Part shown: in pieces, positions 1,399 through 9,991 of the stretch | Layout of the letters: every line of letters begins with the position of its first letter | Numbering within the stretch: position 1 is the stretch's first letter | NCBI GenBank assembly: GCA_015489765.1 | Contig: WFZC01000337.1 | Location: forward strand, 1-40,054 | DNA from: Desulfobulbaceae bacterium | GTDB taxonomy: Bacteria; Desulfobacterota; Desulfobulbia; Desulfobulbales; Desulfobulbaceae | Direction: 5' to 3' | DNA: 40,054 nt | The notes under the pieces: model-generated | What the model was told of the DNA's origin: nothing | Database searches by the model: none | What the model saw: only the letters and a program-made list of their open reading frames with translations | Translations under genes and position numbers: made by a program

Positions 1399-2451
1399 AT
1401 GGAGCAGAGTGACGTCCACAACGGTCAATTAGGCGAGGAGCGAAAGGCCGTTTTTCATCCCATTGAACTGGCGTTGAAACATCAGCGCTTGACGGAAAAA
1501 CGCACGGATTTTCTGGAGGAGTTATTCCCCGCTCGTAAGATATATGCCGAGGAACTGAAGCGTGATCTCGATGAAATAATGCAGGCCATTATTGAGGAGG
1601 AATCTCTGGACAAGGCCTTGTCTCTGCTCGGCACCAAGTATGCCATTGAACGGACACTGCTGGCCGAAGAGCGCAATATCATGGCCGAGGAGCGGAACCT
1701 GCTTGGTGAAAAGCGTACCCGCCGTTCCCGGATCCGGACCGAACTGGCTGAAAAGCGAAGCGGACTTGCCCGGATCCGGACGCTGCTGGCAAGAAATCGT
1801 TCTTTTCTGGCGGAAAAACGCACCTCCATGGCCCAGCAGCGGACCACCCTGGCCAAGGCACGCACCCATCTCGCCTTCATCAGGACCGGTGTCGCCCTGG
1901 TCGCGCTGGGCAGTGCCCTGACCCGGTATTTTGCCCTTGGCTGGTGGACGATCATGGATGTCAGTATCCTGATTCTCGGTGTTGTCATGGTCGGCATGGG
2001 AATCTACTTTTATTTGCCGACCAGAAAGGAAGAGGGGCGTCTGATTGATATCATGCGCCAGAAGGAAGAGGAACTGATGCGGCGTAAGCCCCGTATTCTT
2101 GTTCTGGATGACGAGCTGGCTGTCTGTAAGATGGTAAAGCTCTATCTTGAGAAGGCAGGCTATGAAGTTGAGGCCTTTACCAATCCACATGTTGCCAAGC
2201 AGCGGCTTGAAGCCAGCCAGTTTGACGTGGTCATTACCGATCTGATGATGGAGGGAATGACCGGTAAGGAAATCCTGCAGCTTGTCAAGCGGATCTCGCC
2301 CCAGACCCAGGTCATCATGATTACCCACATGGAAGAACACTTTATTGAAGAGTTCAAGGGAGAGCTTTTCGCCTATTTTTCCAAACCGGTTGACATCAAG
2401 AAATTGCTGGCCTGTGTCAAGCGTGCGGTTGAAGAACGGATGCTGGTGTAG
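1399..2451 (+). CDS. DUF202-like membrane protein with N-terminal Arg-ladder heptad repeat and C-terminal response-regulator receiver domain
   Basis: ARTHLAFIRTGVALVALGSALTRYF is a DUF202-like signature; two TM helices; receiver features ILVLDDE, FDVVITDLMM, FSKPVD. Arg occurs every 7 residues 12 times (R85-R162). Confidence 0.85.
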   Translation: MEQSDVHNGQLGEERKAVFHPIELALKHQRLTEKRTDFLEELFPARKIYAEELKRDLDEIMQAIIEEESLDKALSLLGTKYAIERTLLAEERNIMAEERNLLGEKRTRRSRIRTELAEKRSGLARIRTLLARNRSFLAEKRTSMAQQRTTLAKARTHLAFIRTGVALVALGSALTRYFALGWWTIMDVSILILGVVMVGMGIYFYLPTRKEEGRLIDIMRQKEEELMRRKPRILVLDDELAVCKMVKLYLEKAGYEVEAFTNPHVAKQRLEASQFDVVITDLMMEGMTGKEILQLVKRISPQTQVIMITHMEEHFIEEFKGELFAYFSKPVDIKKLLACVKRAVEERMLV

Positions 2452-2463
2452 AGGGAGCAGACA

Positions 2464-5031
2464 ATGATCAGACTATGGAAATCACTGCACGACGATAAGA
2501 AGGTAAAGGCTACCAATGCCGAAAGACTTGTTCGTAAAAAATATGAGGCATTTTTAACCGTATTGGCAGAAAATTCCCATGCCCTTGAACTGATGACGGA
2601 GCTGGAAAAAAATCTTCTTGAGAATCGTCTTATCAGTATTCCCTATTTGAAAAATATGGTGAAAAACCTGTCCAAAAGCGTTTTCAGTGTTATTGACAAT
2701 CTGGAACGTCTGTCTGGAAACAGATATACCATCCTGACCGATGCCTATGATACCATCGAGCGTGAAATCAGGACCATACTAACCGGCTCCAAGATTCCTG
2801 TCTACACGCCTGCGGTCATACCCATGGATGATATTCACTGCGGCCATATCGACAAGGTCGGCAGTAAAATGGCCAACCTTGGTGAGCTGCGTAATCATTT
2901 TAATATCAACGTTCCCGATGGCTTTGCCCTGACTGCCTGTGCCTACACCCATTTTGCCGAATACAATGATCTTTCCAGGAAGATCAATAGAATTCTGGCA
3001 CGACTCGATATTGAGAACAGCCAGCAGCTCCTGGAGACGGAAAAGGAGATCAAGGCGATCATTGCGGAGGCGGTGATCCCGCCGGAGATAGAAGAAGCCG
3101 TGCAGACGATAAGTCGGGAACTGGAAGAAAAACACGGCCGTAAGATGTATTGGGCCGTGCGTAGCAGCGCCATCGGCGAGGACCTGGAAAATTCCTTTGC
3201 CGGCCAGTTTTCCAGCATATTGAATGTGCCCACCGATCGGTTGTTGGAAAAATACAAAGAGGTGGTTGCCAGCAAGTATAACGCCCGCAACATGCTCTAC
3301 CAGCGCATGAAGGGTATCCGACCCGATGATGTCAACATGAGTGTTGGTATCATCGAGATGGTGCGGCCCATGACCTCGGGTGTTCTCTATACGGTTGAGC
3401 CCATGCGACCGGACTCGGGAGAACTTGTCGTTTCCGCCATCTGGGGCTTGGGGCAGTTGCTGGTGGAGGGCGTGACCTCGGCCGATATGTTTGTCATCAG
3501 GAGAGAGCCGGGTTTTCCGCTGGTCAAGGAAGAGATTGCCCGCAAGGAGATGTGCTTGATATCACTGGATGCGGGTGGGGTTGAGCATGACATGACCTGT
3601 GAAGATGATTGCCGTATCCCCTGTTTGACCCACGAGCAGCTGCAGATCCTCGGCGAAACCGGACTCAAGATAGAAAAACACTTCAAGTCGCCCCAGGACA
3701 TTGAATGGTGCTTTGACCAGGATGGGAAGTTGGTTGTGGTCCAGACCCGGCCGCTTCATGTGCTTGACCATAGCAGCAGGCGGAAGCTGAAGGCGCCCAT
3801 CACCGCACCGGTTATTGCCAGAAACGCACGGGCGGTTGCCGGTGGCGTCGGGGCGGGTGTGGTTTGCAAGGTAACAGATATTCATGAAATATTTACCTTT
3901 CCCGAGGGCGGCATCATGGTGTTGAAAAATTCGTCACCGCGCTTTATCGGCGCCCTGACAAAGGCCGCCGCCGTTGTTGTTGAAAAGGGGAACCGTACCG
4001 ATCACATGTCTTCTGTGGTCCGGGAACTTAATGTCCCCTGTCTTGTGAAAATACCGGAAATTTTTTCCACCCTGCAAAACGGCCAGGAGATTACCGTTGA
4101 TGCCACTGAAGGGACCATTTATGAGGGGAAGGTCACCGAATTGCTGGAAGCGGATGATACTGCGGTCAAGGATCCGTCCGTCGATGTTTCGCAAACCGAG
4201 TCTCACTGGCTGCTCTCGAGAATGGCGGAATATATTTTTCCACTGCATCTGACGGAACCGCAGGTAAGCGATTTTCAGGAAAGTAGCTGTACGACCTGGC
4301 ATGATATTCTTCGTTTCTGTCATGAGACTGCCCTCAATGAAATTTTTCTCCTTAAGGAGAAAGGCAAGGTTAGTTCCATAAAAAATGTCTATCGGATCAG
4401 CACGGATCTTCCTTTTACCCTGTTTGTCTTTGATCTCTTCGGCACCACCATCCAGGGTGGCGGTCAGGGCGGAACAATTGAACCCGGGCAGATCAATGCC
4501 CGGCCCTTTCGCGAGCTCTGGAAAGGTATGACGGCACCGGATGTCAGCTGGAATGGACCAGCGCAGCAGATGGGAGCCAGGGACCTGATGTCGGCGATGA
4601 CACGAACAACCGCTTTCGAAGCAGGATCGGAGGACAGCAGAAGTTACGCCGTTGTTACCCCGGAATACCTTAATCTGAGCCTGAGCCTGGGGTATCATTA
4701 TGTGACCCTGGACTGTTACATAGCCGAAGATCCCTATAATAATTACATCACCCTCTCCTTTAAGGGAGGCGCTGCCGATATACAAAAAAGAAAGTTGCGG
4801 GTTCTGCTTCTTGCCGAAATACTCAAAACGCTCGGATTTGATGTAACGGTGAACAATGATTTTCTCAAGGCCAGGATCAAGGCCGAGGGCAGTGAAGAAC
4901 TGTTACGGATAGTCTATGAACTGGGCCGGATGCTCGGTGTGACCAGACTGTTGGATGTGGCTCTGAAAGACGAAACCATGATCAAGGAATGTGCCCGGAG
5001 GTTTCAGGATCGCAAACCACTGTTGGAGTAG
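2464..5031 (+). CDS. PEP/pyruvate-binding (PPDK_N) and PEP-utilising mobile-domain protein; no recognisable C-terminal PEP-binding barrel
   Basis: GSKMANLGELR...VPDGFALTACAY, YWAVRSSAIGEDLENSFAGQF, QDIEWCFDQDGKLVVVQTRPL, and phospho-His-like motif VVEKGNRTDHMSSVVRELNVPCLV. Confidence 0.85.
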   Translation: MIRLWKSLHDDKKVKATNAERLVRKKYEAFLTVLAENSHALELMTELEKNLLENRLISIPYLKNMVKNLSKSVFSVIDNLERLSGNRYTILTDAYDTIEREIRTILTGSKIPVYTPAVIPMDDIHCGHIDKVGSKMANLGELRNHFNINVPDGFALTACAYTHFAEYNDLSRKINRILARLDIENSQQLLETEKEIKAIIAEAVIPPEIEEAVQTISRELEEKHGRKMYWAVRSSAIGEDLENSFAGQFSSILNVPTDRLLEKYKEVVASKYNARNMLYQRMKGIRPDDVNMSVGIIEMVRPMTSGVLYTVEPMRPDSGELVVSAIWGLGQLLVEGVTSADMFVIRREPGFPLVKEEIARKEMCLISLDAGGVEHDMTCEDDCRIPCLTHEQLQILGETGLKIEKHFKSPQDIEWCFDQDGKLVVVQTRPLHVLDHSSRRKLKAPITAPVIARNARAVAGGVGAGVVCKVTDIHEIFTFPEGGIMVLKNSSPRFIGALTKAAAVVVEKGNRTDHMSSVVRELNVPCLVKIPEIFSTLQNGQEITVDATEGTIYEGKVTELLEADDTAVKDPSVDVSQTESHWLLSRMAEYIFPLHLTEPQVSDFQESSCTTWHDILRFCHETALNEIFLLKEKGKVSSIKNVYRISTDLPFTLFVFDLFGTTIQGGGQGGTIEPGQINARPFRELWKGMTAPDVSWNGPAQQMGARDLMSAMTRTTAFEAGSEDSRSYAVVTPEYLNLSLSLGYHYVTLDCYIAEDPYNNYITLSFKGGAADIQKRKLRVLLLAEILKTLGFDVTVNNDFLKARIKAEGSEELLRIVYELGRMLGVTRLLDVALKDETMIKECARRFQDRKPLLE

Positions 5032-5104
5032 CGGACACCAGGGACAATCCGTCAAGGAGCCGGGTAGAATCAATGAAAAATAAAGGGGTGCAAAGCAGCC
5101 GGCT

Positions 5105-7057
5105 GTGAAATTCAAGGAATTGAAACTGCCCACCAAGTTCATGCTTGGCCTGGGACTGATCCTTCTTGGAACCAACTGTATTATTTCCATTTTTTTTTAC
5201 AGCTATGTGAAAAACCTCTATCTCGAGGAACTTTATCAGAAAACAGAATTTACCCTGGGTTATATTGACGCGACCATGGAGTTTGTCCGTGACGATCTCC
5301 GGCCCAGAATGCTGCACTTTCTCCCCAGAGATGAGTTTATCAGCGAGGCCATGTCCACATCGGTGGTCAACAAGAAGATCATGGCCCGCTTCATCAAGAG
5401 ATTTCCCCGCAATGTCTACCGCCGGGTTGCCCTCAACCCCATGAATCCGGCAAACAGGGCCAATGCGTTTGAGCGCGCCCACATTGCCCGCTTTAATGAG
5501 GAACCTGATCAGACACCTGGTTGGCAGGGACTGGTTTCAAGGGATGGTCTCCAGTATTTTGTCCGCATGCAGGCGGTTCGAATGGAAAAGTCATGTCTCC
5601 TCTGTCATGGCGATCCCTCCATGGCTCCCCGTTCACTTGTGCGGCGTTATGGAGCGGAAAACGGCCATAACTGGAAGATCGGGCAGGTCATTGGCCTGGA
5701 ATCCATTGCCATTCCCGTGGCGCAAACCTTCTATCAGATACGTCAGGCCGCCCTGGTGATTTTTATTGTCGGCCTGATCGCCCTCTCCGTTGTTCTTGTC
5801 TTGATCAACTATTTTCATTTTGTAGTGGCGGTGCGTCCTCTGCGCCGGGCCAGCGCCTTTTTCAAGTCCGTGGTCAGCGGCGAAAAGGGATTGGATAGCC
5901 GTTTCGAGGTCCACGGCAGTGATGAGATCGCGGAGCTTGGAGATTCGTTCAATCGGATGATCGGCCATCTGAAACAGTCCCAGGAGGAGGTTCGTTCATC
6001 CGAGGCCAAGTACCGGCAGATTTTCGAGGGCTCCAAGGATGGCATCATCGTCACCGATTGCGAGGGGTTGGTCGTGGATGTCAACAATGCCGGTATCGAG
6101 CTGTTCGGCTGCAAGAACAGGCGGGAATTCATGCGCAATGTGACGATTCATGACTTTTTTGTTCATCGGCAAGAGCGCAATAATTTTCTGGTCCGCATGG
6201 AGGAGCAGGGATATGTCAAGGATTTTGAAGCCCTGTTCCGCAAACGGGACAACTCGGAGTTTGAGGTGCTTATCACCGCCACCCTCCAACGTAAGGAGAA
6301 AGAACCGGGGTGCCTGTATGAGTGTATTGTCCGGGATGTCAGCGAACGCAAGAGCATGGAGATGCAGATCCGCCAGGCCGAAAAACTGGCCTCCATCGGT
6401 CAGCTTGCCGCCGGGGTAGCCCATGAAATCAACAATCCGCTTTCCATCATCCTTGGCTATACCGGCCTGCTTTTGAAAGAAAACCGGGATGACAGGCAGG
6501 CAGGGGACCTTGAGATAATCCGTAACAATGCCGGCATGTGCAAAAAAATCGTTGAAGACCTGCTCAACTTTTCCCGGCAGACCGACACCCGGTTTGTGCG
6601 GGCGGATATTGGTGAAACCGTGGCATCGGTTATTGACGTTCTTGAGGGTGAATTTTCCGGCAAGGGAATTGCAATCATAACCGATTTTGCCGACGATATT
6701 CCTGCGGTTCCCATGTCTGTGGACAAGATCAGGCAGGTCTGCCTAAATCTCATGATCAACGCGGCCCAGGCCATTGAGGGAGAGGGCACCATCCAGGTGG
6801 TTGGCCGCTACGAGGCACGGGACAACATGGTGCGGATTTCCTTTATCGACACCGGCTGTGGTATTCCCTGCAAGATTCAGCACAAGATATTCGAACCGTT
6901 TTTTACCACCAAGGAACCGGGCCAGGGCACCGGGCTGGGCACTTCGGTCAGTTACGGGATTATCGAGGAGCATGGCGGGGAGATAGCCTTTACCAGTGAA
7001 GAGGGCAAGGGCACGACCTTCTGGATACGATTGCCCCTGAAGGAGCAGCCTCAATGA
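5105..7057 (+). CDS. Sensor histidine kinase with Tll0287-like (DUF3365) periplasmic heme-binding domain, HAMP, PAS, HisKA and HATPase
   Basis: GTG start; MEKSCLLCHGDPSMAP (CxxCH), GVAHEINNPLSIILGYTGLL H-box, NLMINAAQAI N-box, DTGCGIP and GQGTGLGTSVSYGI. Confidence 0.9.
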   Translation: MKFKELKLPTKFMLGLGLILLGTNCIISIFFYSYVKNLYLEELYQKTEFTLGYIDATMEFVRDDLRPRMLHFLPRDEFISEAMSTSVVNKKIMARFIKRFPRNVYRRVALNPMNPANRANAFERAHIARFNEEPDQTPGWQGLVSRDGLQYFVRMQAVRMEKSCLLCHGDPSMAPRSLVRRYGAENGHNWKIGQVIGLESIAIPVAQTFYQIRQAALVIFIVGLIALSVVLVLINYFHFVVAVRPLRRASAFFKSVVSGEKGLDSRFEVHGSDEIAELGDSFNRMIGHLKQSQEEVRSSEAKYRQIFEGSKDGIIVTDCEGLVVDVNNAGIELFGCKNRREFMRNVTIHDFFVHRQERNNFLVRMEEQGYVKDFEALFRKRDNSEFEVLITATLQRKEKEPGCLYECIVRDVSERKSMEMQIRQAEKLASIGQLAAGVAHEINNPLSIILGYTGLLLKENRDDRQAGDLEIIRNNAGMCKKIVEDLLNFSRQTDTRFVRADIGETVASVIDVLEGEFSGKGIAIITDFADDIPAVPMSVDKIRQVCLNLMINAAQAIEGEGTIQVVGRYEARDNMVRISFIDTGCGIPCKIQHKIFEPFFTTKEPGQGTGLGTSVSYGIIEEHGGEIAFTSEEGKGTTFWIRLPLKEQPQ

Positions 7058-8454
7058 GCAGACAGGCGGTATTATTGGTTGATGACAAGAAAGATATGCT
7101 CACCATGTTGACCAGGCTTTTGCATACGGAGCTGGACGTGGATATTCACTGCGCCGGCGGCGGTGAAGAGGCCTTTGCCTTTCTTGAGAATAATCCCTGC
7201 GATGTGGTGGTGACCGACATCCGCATGCCGGGAATGGATGGTATGGAGCTCCTGCGCCGTATCAGGAAGGGGGGCTCCAGGATCATGGTTATCATGATGA
7301 CGGCCTATGGAAGTATTGACAACGCGGTGGAATCCCTGAAACTCGGGGCCTATGATTTCATCACCAAGCCCTTTGACGAGGAGCGTCTGGTGCATGTTAT
7401 CCGCAAGGGCCTGGAGCATGGGGTCCTGCAGCAACAAACCAGAAAGCTGGAACAGCGCATCCGGGAGCAGAAGGTCAACGAGCGCTTCATCGGCCAGTCT
7501 ACCGCGTTGCGCAAACTGACCGAAATGATCAACCTCGTTGCCAGGACCGATGTGCCGGTGCTGATTACCGGCGAAACCGGCACCGGCAAGGAACTGGCCG
7601 CTTCGATGATTCATGATTTAAGTGACCGGGCAGACGGCCCCCTGGTGACAGTCAACTGCGCGGCCATACCCGAGGACATCCTGGAAAGCGAGTTGTTCGG
7701 ACACCGCAAGGGTGCCTTTACCGGTGCTGCTGCCGACAGGGCTGGTCTCTTTGCCGCTGCCGAGGGCGGCAGTATTGTTCTGGATGAAATCGGCGATATG
7801 CCCATTCTCCTGCAGTCCAAGCTGTTGCGGGTCCTGCAGGAGAAAAAAGTCCGGCCGCTGGGCGCTGACCGGAGCCGCACCATTGATGTGCGTATCATTG
7901 CCTCGACCAACCAGAATCTGCCGGAAAAGATCATGGCCGGGAAATTTCGGGAAGACCTGTACCACCGGCTGGCCTGTGTCGCCCTAAACACCCCGCCTCT
8001 GCGTGATATCCCCGATGATATCCCGCTGATCGCCAACCATTTTCTCAGCCGCTATACCGAGGAATTCGGGTTGGAGAAGACGATGTCCGAACAGGCCCGG
8101 CGTTATCTGATAACCAGAAAATGGACAGGTAATGTTCGGGAACTGCAGAACGCCATTAAACGGGCACTGATATTTTCCAAGGGGGATGAGCTGTTGTCCG
8201 AGGATTTTGACTGTGCCCTCGGTATGCTGCCGCGTGGTGATGGCGGGTCAGAAGAGTTGTGTGACCTGACCTATCGGGAGGCCAAGGAAAAAATCCTGGA
8301 AAAGTTTACAACCCGGTACATGACCAGTCTGCTGGAACAGACCGGCGGCAATGTTTCCCGGGCCGCCAAAAAGGCTGGGATCGAGCGCCAGTCCATGCAA
8401 CAGCTTTTGAAAAAATATGGTATTTCAGCGGCCCGCTTCCGGGAGAAGGCATGA
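7054..8454 (+). CDS. Sigma-54-dependent NtrC-type response regulator
   Basis: Receiver domain (VVVTDIRMPGMDG), GETGTGKE Walker A, ESELFGHRKGAFTGA (GAFTGA loop), C-terminal Fis-type HTH; ATGA overlap with the kinase gene. Confidence 0.95.
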   Translation: MSRQAVLLVDDKKDMLTMLTRLLHTELDVDIHCAGGGEEAFAFLENNPCDVVVTDIRMPGMDGMELLRRIRKGGSRIMVIMMTAYGSIDNAVESLKLGAYDFITKPFDEERLVHVIRKGLEHGVLQQQTRKLEQRIREQKVNERFIGQSTALRKLTEMINLVARTDVPVLITGETGTGKELAASMIHDLSDRADGPLVTVNCAAIPEDILESELFGHRKGAFTGAAADRAGLFAAAEGGSIVLDEIGDMPILLQSKLLRVLQEKKVRPLGADRSRTIDVRIIASTNQNLPEKIMAGKFREDLYHRLACVALNTPPLRDIPDDIPLIANHFLSRYTEEFGLEKTMSEQARRYLITRKWTGNVRELQNAIKRALIFSKGDELLSEDFDCALGMLPRGDGGSEELCDLTYREAKEKILEKFTTRYMTSLLEQTGGNVSRAAKKAGIERQSMQQLLKKYGISAARFREKA

Positions 8455-8537: not shown

Positions 8538-8612
8538 GCGGGAGGGAGCGGCCCCGCCAGCGCCCCCAAAAAAGTCAGGGGCGGGACCGTTCCATCCCGC
8601 TTGCTTTTTTCT
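8538..8612 (+). terminator. Strong hairpin between convergent genes, likely terminator for the 1399-8454 cluster
   Basis: gcgggagggagcggccccgcc (8538-8558) pairs with ggcgggaccgttccatcccgc (8580-8600), 18 of 21 positions complementary, followed by ttgctttttt. Confidence 0.7.
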
Positions 8613-9991
8613 TATCCATGCATCCCCAGGACATAATATCTGAGCCAGACATAAATCATGGCGATGAAGACCGTGATCAGCATGATCGGAAGACTGTAGG
8701 CCATGAATTTGAGAAAGCTGATTTTATGACCTGCCTTTTCCGACATACCAACAACAATAACATTGGCCGAGGCGCCGATGGCCGTGCCGTTGCCGCCGAG
8801 ACAGGCCCCCAGTGCCAGGGACCACCAGATGGGCATCAGGTCCGGATGCTGAAGCAGGGCCAGGCCGGTCTGATGGGGCCAGAGTTCCCGGGCCATGTCC
8901 ACGATAAGCGGATTCATGGTGGCCACATAGGGGATATTGTCGACCACGGCCGAGGCAATAGCGGAAAACCACATGATGACCATGGAGGTGGAGAACAGGT
9001 TGCCGTGGGTCAGGGCAAGCATTTTTTCGGACATCAGCTTGATGGCCCCGACTTTGACCAGGCCGCCGACCATGATAAACAGACCGATAAAAAAGAAGAT
9101 AACCGGCCACTCGACCTCGGCCAGGATGTGGTGGGGCTCATCGGTCCCGGAGAGGAGCAGGAGCAGGGCGGCGCCGAACAGGGCAATCGTTGCCGGTTCA
9201 TAATGGAAAAATCCGTGCAGGATAAAGCCGATCAGGACAATACCGAGCACCACCAGGGATTTTGTCAGCATGACCGGGTCCTTGATCGCCTCGTTTTCAT
9301 CCATTTGCATGATACGGTTTTTGAGTTCATCCCTGGTCTTGAGTTTCCTGCCGAATATGAGTTTCAGGATCAGGATGAGGACCCCCATGATAAAGATAAC
9401 GGCAGGGGTCAGGTGAATGATAAAGTCCATGAAATCGAGTTTTGCCTTGGAGGCGATCATGATATTGGGTGGATCACCGATCAGGGTCGCGGTGCCACCG
9501 ATATTCGAGGCAATTGCTTCGACAATCAGATAGGGAACAGGATCGACTTCCAGGGCGTCGGCAATGAGCAGGGTGACCGGTGCCAGCAGAAGAACAGTGG
9601 TGACGTTGTCAAGAAATGCCGACAACACGGCAGTAATGACGGCAAAAATGATCATTATCCGCATCGGCTCACCGCGCCCCGCCTTGGCCGAGCGGATGGC
9701 GATATATTCAAACAGGCCGGTTGGCCGGATGAGGTTGATGATGATCATCATGCCGATCAGCAGAAAGATGACATTCCAGTCAACGCCGAATTCTTCAAGA
9801 TGAAAGGCATCGTGCTGCTCAAGAATCTTCAAGACAAGGATGAGGGAGGCGCCGAACAGGGAGATAATGGTCTTGTGGATTTTTTCCGACATGATGATGG
9901 CAAGGGCCAGGAAAAAAATACCGCAGGCAAGGTAAAACTGGGTGTTCATCACCACGGTATGCACGGCCTGTGCCGTCTCAACAGGTTCCAT
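8612..9991 (-). CDS. NhaD/ArsB-type (SLC13, IT superfamily) sodium:proton antiporter
   Basis: Polytopic; FLDNVTTVLLLAPVTLLI, NIGGTATLIGDPPNIMIASKA and LGACLGGNGTAIGASANVIVVG are hallmark NhaD/ArsB motifs. Confidence 0.9.
   Translation of the reverse strand: MEPVETAQAVHTVVMNTQFYLACGIFFLALAIIMSEKIHKTIISLFGASLILVLKILEQHDAFHLEEFGVDWNVIFLLIGMMIIINLIRPTGLFEYIAIRSAKAGRGEPMRIMIIFAVITAVLSAFLDNVTTVLLLAPVTLLIADALEVDPVPYLIVEAIASNIGGTATLIGDPPNIMIASKAKLDFMDFIIHLTPAVIFIMGVLILILKLIFGRKLKTRDELKNRIMQMDENEAIKDPVMLTKSLVVLGIVLIGFILHGFFHYEPATIALFGAALLLLLSGTDEPHHILAEVEWPVIFFFIGLFIMVGGLVKVGAIKLMSEKMLALTHGNLFSTSMVIMWFSAIASAVVDNIPYVATMNPLIVDMARELWPHQTGLALLQHPDLMPIWWSLALGACLGGNGTAIGASANVIVVGMSEKAGHKISFLKFMAYSLPIMLITVFIAMIYVWLRYYVLGMHG

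Follow-up and report, generated by a model that had tools for sequence, protein, structure and literature searches.

The window analysed here is a 40,054-nucleotide stretch of contig WFZC01000337.1 from a Desulfobulbaceae bacterium (assembly GCA_015489765.1), and near one end it encodes a protein in which a long run of arginine heptads, a DUF202 membrane domain and a response-regulator receiver are joined (Table 1). The next gene encodes a PEP-synthase-like protein with ATP-grasp and phosphohistidine domains. Proteins of the PEP-synthase type are expected to carry a PEP/pyruvate barrel in their C-terminal region; no such barrel was recognised here, and the C-terminal domain had no Pfam match. 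A model of this domain, made in search of its substrate, reached a pLDDT of 63, and no PDB entry matched it at an E-value below 0.03. A sensor histidine kinase follows, whose translated sensor region includes CLLCH, a CxxCH motif that hints at sensing through c-type haem; array-linked kinases in other genomes have sensor regions unlike this one and similar among themselves. Beyond the NtrC-type regulator lies a gene that we take to encode an NhaD-like antiporter, and genes similar to it were found by phmmer near two clusters of multi-DUF202 genes (L049 and L093). On the other side of the fusion gene, a small minus-strand ORF (124-381) gives the impression, from its sequence, of an AbrB/MazE-type antitoxin.

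Table 1 Features at the DUF202-receiver locus (window coordinates).
Feature	Position	Strand	Basis
DUF202-receiver fusion protein, 350 aa	1399..2451	+	ORF; Pfam DUF202 and Response_reg; eight orthologues aligned
N-terminal region, residues 1-81	1399..1641	+	Alignment; AlphaFold2 helices 20-29, 35-66 and start of 70-177
Twelve RTxLAxx heptads, residues 82-165, Arg at 85 + 7n	1642..1893	+	Translation, alignment, periodicity count
Nine added heptads, residues 82-144 (R85-R141), N-terminal to DUF202	1642..1830	+	PF02656 start; Arg counts of ordinary DUF202 proteins
DUF202 domain, residues 148-206: three final Arg heptads, two predicted TM helices	1840..2016	+	Pfam; TM2 hydropathy; Vtc1 alignment
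Receiver domain, residues 233-340	2095..2418	+	Pfam (77 bits); phosphorylation residues
PEP-synthase-like protein, 855 aa: PPDK_N and mobile phosphohistidine domain	2464..5031	+	Pfam
Sensor histidine kinase: Tll0287-like sensor, HAMP, PAS, HisKA, HATPase	5105..7057	+	Pfam
NtrC-type response regulator	7054..8454	+	Pfam
NhaD-like antiporter (presumed)	8612..9991	-	phmmer similarity of L049 and L093 genes

The array is free of gaps, and translation reproduced every arginine that the initial annotation had placed at a spacing of seven residues (85, 92, 99, 106, 113, 120, 127, 134, 141, 148, 155 and 162). The twelve exact heptads described there are likewise as quoted, though the DNA end given for them, 1890, falls one codon short of the true end. 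The longest chain of arginines at a step of seven has 12 members, while other steps from 2 to 13 yield three at most and step 14, a multiple of seven, yields seven; when residues 1-229 were shuffled 20,000 times, no step-7 chain exceeded seven members, a length reached once. The net charge of the array is +13. An Arg-rich ORF on the minus strand (1482-1997) is a mere shadow of the heptad repeat. Residues 1-229 had no match in 50,697 phage records.

Pfam places DUF202 (PF02656) in the protein at 25.4 bits against a gathering cut-off of 23.4, and position 1 of the profile falls on R148. Three of the twelve heptads therefore belong to DUF202, in keeping with the earlier recognition of a DUF202-type motif in the last units, and nine are additions in front of it. 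This was the only DUF202 protein found in the genome. Its receiver (PF00072), also anticipated from the sequence, retains the phosphorylation residues D237/D238, the phospho-acceptor D281, T309 and K329. The two TM helices expected after the array fared unequally: they are placed at about 163-181 (TM1) and 184-206 (TM2), but only TM2 is clear by hydropathy, whereas TM1 contains R176 and lies outside the top hydropathy windows, so its assignment rests on homology to DUF202.

The helical stalk proposed from the sequence is also what AlphaFold2 predicts. With eight orthologues in a shallow input alignment and moderate confidence overall, the model has residues 70-177 as one unbroken helix (pLDDT about 70-81), followed by a second helix (184-228) that passes through TM2 to the receiver; TM1 and TM2 are both helical, at low confidence. 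Residues 1-81 are mostly helical in the same model and include a strongly conserved FPARKxYxEELKRDLDEIM segment in the orthologue alignment. A heptad hydrophobic face, one of the features by which coiled coils are judged alongside oligomerisation, is present in the array. Searching the PDB by profile with the N-terminal part yielded weak, unconvincing matches only (ribosomal protein uL6, E about 0.005), the matches listed by Foldseek for the model were receiver domains, and Pfam coiled-coil matches (MscS_porin, FBF1, ATG14) were compositional and at or below their cut-offs.

The same receiver-fused protein occurs at seven further loci in MAGs of Desulfobulbaceae and other 'Deltaproteobacteria' (76-93% identity over residues 1-229). 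Across the eight aligned orthologues, full-length identity is 77-95%, all contain twelve heptads, and all 12 arginine columns are invariant. A more distant orthologue (L057, from genome G149 in another family of the order) also keeps 12 heptads, in one of which Asn stands in for Arg. As far as seen in this sample, repeat number is thus fixed at 12 and does not vary between strains of the receiver-fused form. Three of these loci (L046-L048, genomes G596, G614 and G522) come from outside the order, from another order or a higher-level group within the phylum, and still show 76-86% identity over residues 1-229, which may reflect very slow evolution or horizontal transfer. The L046 protein (5001-6050) carries Asn in place of the phospho-acceptor Asp (ITNFMMEG versus ITDLMMEG) and DN in place of DD, making it a possible pseudo-receiver.

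An N-terminal profile search over 263 genomes of the order recovered related DUF202 proteins in 52, most of them encoded by gene pairs with five DUF202 copies in all and about 5-7 Arg heptads before each copy; some of these multi-DUF202 proteins also include an MshEN domain. We extended the search to 396 genomes of the phylum with a DNA pattern for RTxLAxx, and then to selected genomes with a stricter form, which was adopted because the first pattern (MGNA x8) returned much noise (AGAAGACAG satellites and Glu-rich coils) along with real arrays and had many matches in its reversed-pattern control; the control of the stricter pattern gave 0 in all but two genomes. These searches, which carry out the proposed hunt for RTxLA arrays adjoining DUF202, revealed single-DUF202 proteins with far longer arrays. 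Arginine occupies 38 of 38 heptads in L162 (net charge +24), 30/30 in L161, 29/29 in L165 and 22/22 in L164; elsewhere it occupies 20/22 (L159), 18/22 (L160), 20/24 (L163), 17/21 (L166), 14/16 (L170 and L171), 13/15 (L092) and 9/11 (L085). All seven long-array proteins scanned with Pfam matched DUF202, L165 falling one bit short of the cut-off. Repeat counts within the phylum are thus 5-7 per copy in multi-DUF202 proteins, 9-24 in others, or 22, 26, 29, 30, 38 and 39, and the window protein belongs to a family with about 5-39 repeats. In a sample of 128 genomes of the phylum, DUF202 exceeded the cut-off in 26, and arrays of at least 12 heptads occurred in five, the window's own among them; ordinary DUF202 proteins had 2-4 in-register arginines.

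Beyond this phylum, the searches covered a plasmid collection, where a Leptolyngbya plasmid encodes ten heptads before a DUF202 domain that continues into an SBF transporter. On a Neorhizobium megaplasmid, ten heptads of the RTxLSxx type were counted by eye in one protein; long arrays thus recur in three phyla. The cyanobacterial plasmid protein (L242, 4980-6422), which unites its ten heptads with DUF202 and the SBF-type transporter in one chain, lies among four clustered DUF202 genes.

Tandem expansion of the RTxLAxxRT motif, as suggested in the initial annotation, is supported, and extends beyond what was proposed there: the register is unbroken into PF02656, ordinary DUF202 proteins carry the same Arg heptad 2-4 times, and relatives differ by whole heptads. 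In one genus we found 26 (G650), 38 (G530) and 39 (G649) heptads, and no fewer than 24 in G647, whose array is cut off by the end of the contig; in another, arrays of 22 (G334) and 29 (G366) heptads have flanks that align and gaps of whole heptads. Such differences between species of a genus could in principle arise if a 21-base unit, itself without function, had multiplied by slippage. Conservation already contradicts this neutral explanation, which we consider barely credible: third codon positions at identical residues agree in only 26-46% of cases in most arrays (L159 and L160 are higher) while R, T, L and A are kept, the 12 Arg columns are invariant in the eight orthologues, and long arrays recur across phyla. 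The divergence of third codon positions indicates that most repeats are old and have been maintained by selection on the protein.

In the 355 heptads compared, drawn from 16 proteins, Arg occupies position 0 in 332, with Gln, Ser and Asn next in frequency and Lys never present; position 1 is mostly Thr, position 3 mostly Leu and position 4 Ala or Ser, whereas positions 2, 5 and 6 are variable and mostly polar. On a helical wheel (our own geometry, 100 degrees per residue), L3, R0, A4 and T1 share one face, with Arg and Ala at its centre. Residues at ±3/±4 from the heptad Arg are 0% acidic; Leu-type residues at -4 and +3 and small ones (Ala/Ser) at -3 and +4 occur almost exclusively. The arginine thus sits on a packing face with no intrahelical salt-bridge partner, and we infer that it points towards other helices, a ligand or a lumen. 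This composition makes it very unlikely that the array is a single alpha-helix (SAH) domain, in which intrahelical salt bridges would stabilise an isolated charged rod that does not oligomerise. A long unbroken helix is indeed predicted and the variable positions carry both acidic and basic residues, yet SAH domains are recognised by dense acid-base pairs at i,i+4 and by the lack of a hydrophobic face, whereas the array has no acidic residue at ±3/±4 from the heptad Arg and a continuous Leu/Ala face.

The net charges of the arrays would also suit an outward basic face that binds a polyanion or lipid (nucleic acid, polyphosphate or acidic lipids), and VTC homologues do move polyP (PMC9911596). 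We nevertheless judge this reading improbable, since Arg is flanked by Leu and Ala rather than by other basic residues, Lys would serve equally well for charge and is absent, and neither PPK1 nor VTC, the two systems searched for, is present in the genomes with the longest arrays.

The gene neighbourhood ties these proteins to signalling. The order DUF202, histidine kinase, receiver is found in six long-array loci (L161, L162, L164, L165, L240 and L241), in eleven multi-DUF202 loci and at the multi-DUF202 pair of L170, and most free receivers resemble the window's fused receiver more than they do its NtrC regulator. In the window's own family the receiver is fused behind TM2, which suggests that array protein and receiver work together. 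The link between array proteins and two-component signalling is therefore well supported, though five arrays (L160, L163, L166, L171 and L085) have neither kinase, receiver nor PEP-synthase-like gene next door. Wherever an orthologous locus offers enough sequence, the gene immediately after the receiver-fused one encodes the PEP-synthase-like protein, G149 being the exception, and most multi-DUF202 clusters also have such a gene nearby; since its family is present in 213 of the 263 genomes of the order, far more commonly than arrays, adjacency alone is informative and presence or absence says little. Among other neighbours, a Cytidylate_kin2-family gene (2329-2850) adjoins the L092 array (1577-2305), genes that look alike by eye sit next to the arrays of L159 and L171, and a USP-like gene lies close to array or PEP-synthase-like genes in L043, L045 and L161 (the L161 annotation being by eye).

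These conserved neighbours count in favour of the main rival to our preferred interpretation, in which the array is a spacer or scaffold that sets the distance of a partner from the membrane or offers repeated docking sites. Its arginines would bind acidic helices of partners such as the kinase, the receiver or the PEP-synthase-like enzyme, and no lumen ligand would be involved. Repeat numbers that differ between species of one genus are what a spacer or multivalent docking platform would show, but a plain spacer needs no Arg at nearly every heptad with Lys never used, and length is fixed within the receiver-fused family. We regard this explanation as a serious one, though on balance doubtful.

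The relatives of bacterial DUF202 proteins that are well understood are the VTC channel subunits. Yeast Vtc1 (sequence identical to PDB 8i6v) matches PF02656 with K24 at profile position 1, and its alignment to the window protein pairs K24 with R148, R31 with R155 and N38 with R162. The VTC channel is formed by five TM1 helices whose K24 and R31 line a polyphosphate pore (PMC9911596). Because R148 and R155 align with these pore-lining residues, the array continues the pore-lining register outward from the membrane, an analogy that supports inward-facing arginines. The same homology had first suggested a polyphosphate conduit. However, the VTC polymerase domain (PF09359) was absent from all 22 array genomes tested (the window's and 21 others), and PPK1, the one polyphosphate kinase searched for, was found in only six, the window's among them. 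We therefore lowered our estimate of that idea: the analogy supplies no ligand, does not make the window protein a VTC, and leaves polyphosphate disfavoured as the ligand.

We propose that the array proteins form a membrane-anchored helical bundle, packed on the arginine face, and that phosphorylation of the receiver determines the state of this bundle, and assign this reading a probability of roughly 0.4. TM1 of DUF202 would be extended into the cytoplasm by the nine extra RTxLAxx heptads as one continuous helix, the twelve heptads spanning about 12.6 nm. The conserved Leu-Arg-Ala-Thr face would hold several copies together, much as TM1 helices associate in the VTC channel, with arginines facing the core of a rod or tube that rises from a small bundle of DUF202 membrane domains. 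The receiver would be phosphorylated by a histidine kinase; it is fused behind TM2 here and a separate neighbouring protein in many relatives. Phosphorylation would change the packing and thereby the state of the membrane part and the rod. The bundle is favoured by a register continuous with PF02656 and Vtc1 K24/R31, by the near-constant Arg and exclusion of Lys, and by length changes in whole heptads. Against it, one Arg per heptad in a core would be repulsive without counter-ions; the proposal includes an anionic ligand or partner that would occupy the Arg face. Receiver control is likewise challenged by the five arrays that have no adjacent kinase or receiver and by the Asn at the L046 phospho-acceptor position. 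A bolder version, in which Arg-lined tubes prolong a membrane pore into the cytoplasm, to a length of about 40 nm at most, open or assemble when the receiver is phosphorylated and conduct an anionic substrate other than polyphosphate, seems to us rather unlikely.

The arrays point to a signal-controlled helical rod or tube that has not been described. The initial remark that no such architecture was known is consistent with the open-licence literature, in which we found no description of DUF202 arrays, no paper that brings together DUF202, heptad and arginine, and no established function for bacterial DUF202 proteins. We see the array as an elaboration within an established domain family, not as something new in kind, although there is a real possibility that the structure it forms is new. 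Where other members have two or three arginines in the pore register, the arrays have as many as 39, almost all of them conserved, and tie them to two-component signalling. They thereby make testable both the purpose of the DUF202 arginine register and whether a membrane bundle can continue as an ordered cytoplasmic rod, and the repeat offers a natural length series for the study of charged-core helical bundles.

Among known systems, the small YidH-type DUF202 membrane proteins share the DUF202 domain, for which two TM helices are expected, and an Arg heptad leading into TM1, but have only 2-4 in-register arginines and no receiver, where the window protein has 12 and a fused receiver. YidH itself was a first-round candidate D-alanine exporter in one screen and had no effect in a transport assay (PMC10299036). 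The yeast VTC complex (Vtc1/Vtc3/Vtc4), a polyphosphate polymerase and channel, resembles the window protein in that Vtc1 is a PF02656 protein with basic residues at the K24 and R31 positions; it differs in having neither a cytoplasmic heptad array nor a receiver, and array genomes lack its polymerase domain. Closer at hand, the multi-DUF202 proteins of the same order share the heptad and the kinase-receiver operon, but carry two or three DUF202 copies, short arrays (5-7 heptads) and a separate receiver. The Leptolyngbya BL0902 protein WP_225907736.1 likewise has ten consecutive Arg heptads before DUF202, with a sodium/bile-acid-symporter-type transporter (PF01758) instead of a receiver. The long single-DUF202 arrays followed by kinase and receiver (L161, L162, L164, L165, L240 and L241) have the same architecture as the window protein, from which they differ in their 22-39 heptads and unfused receiver.
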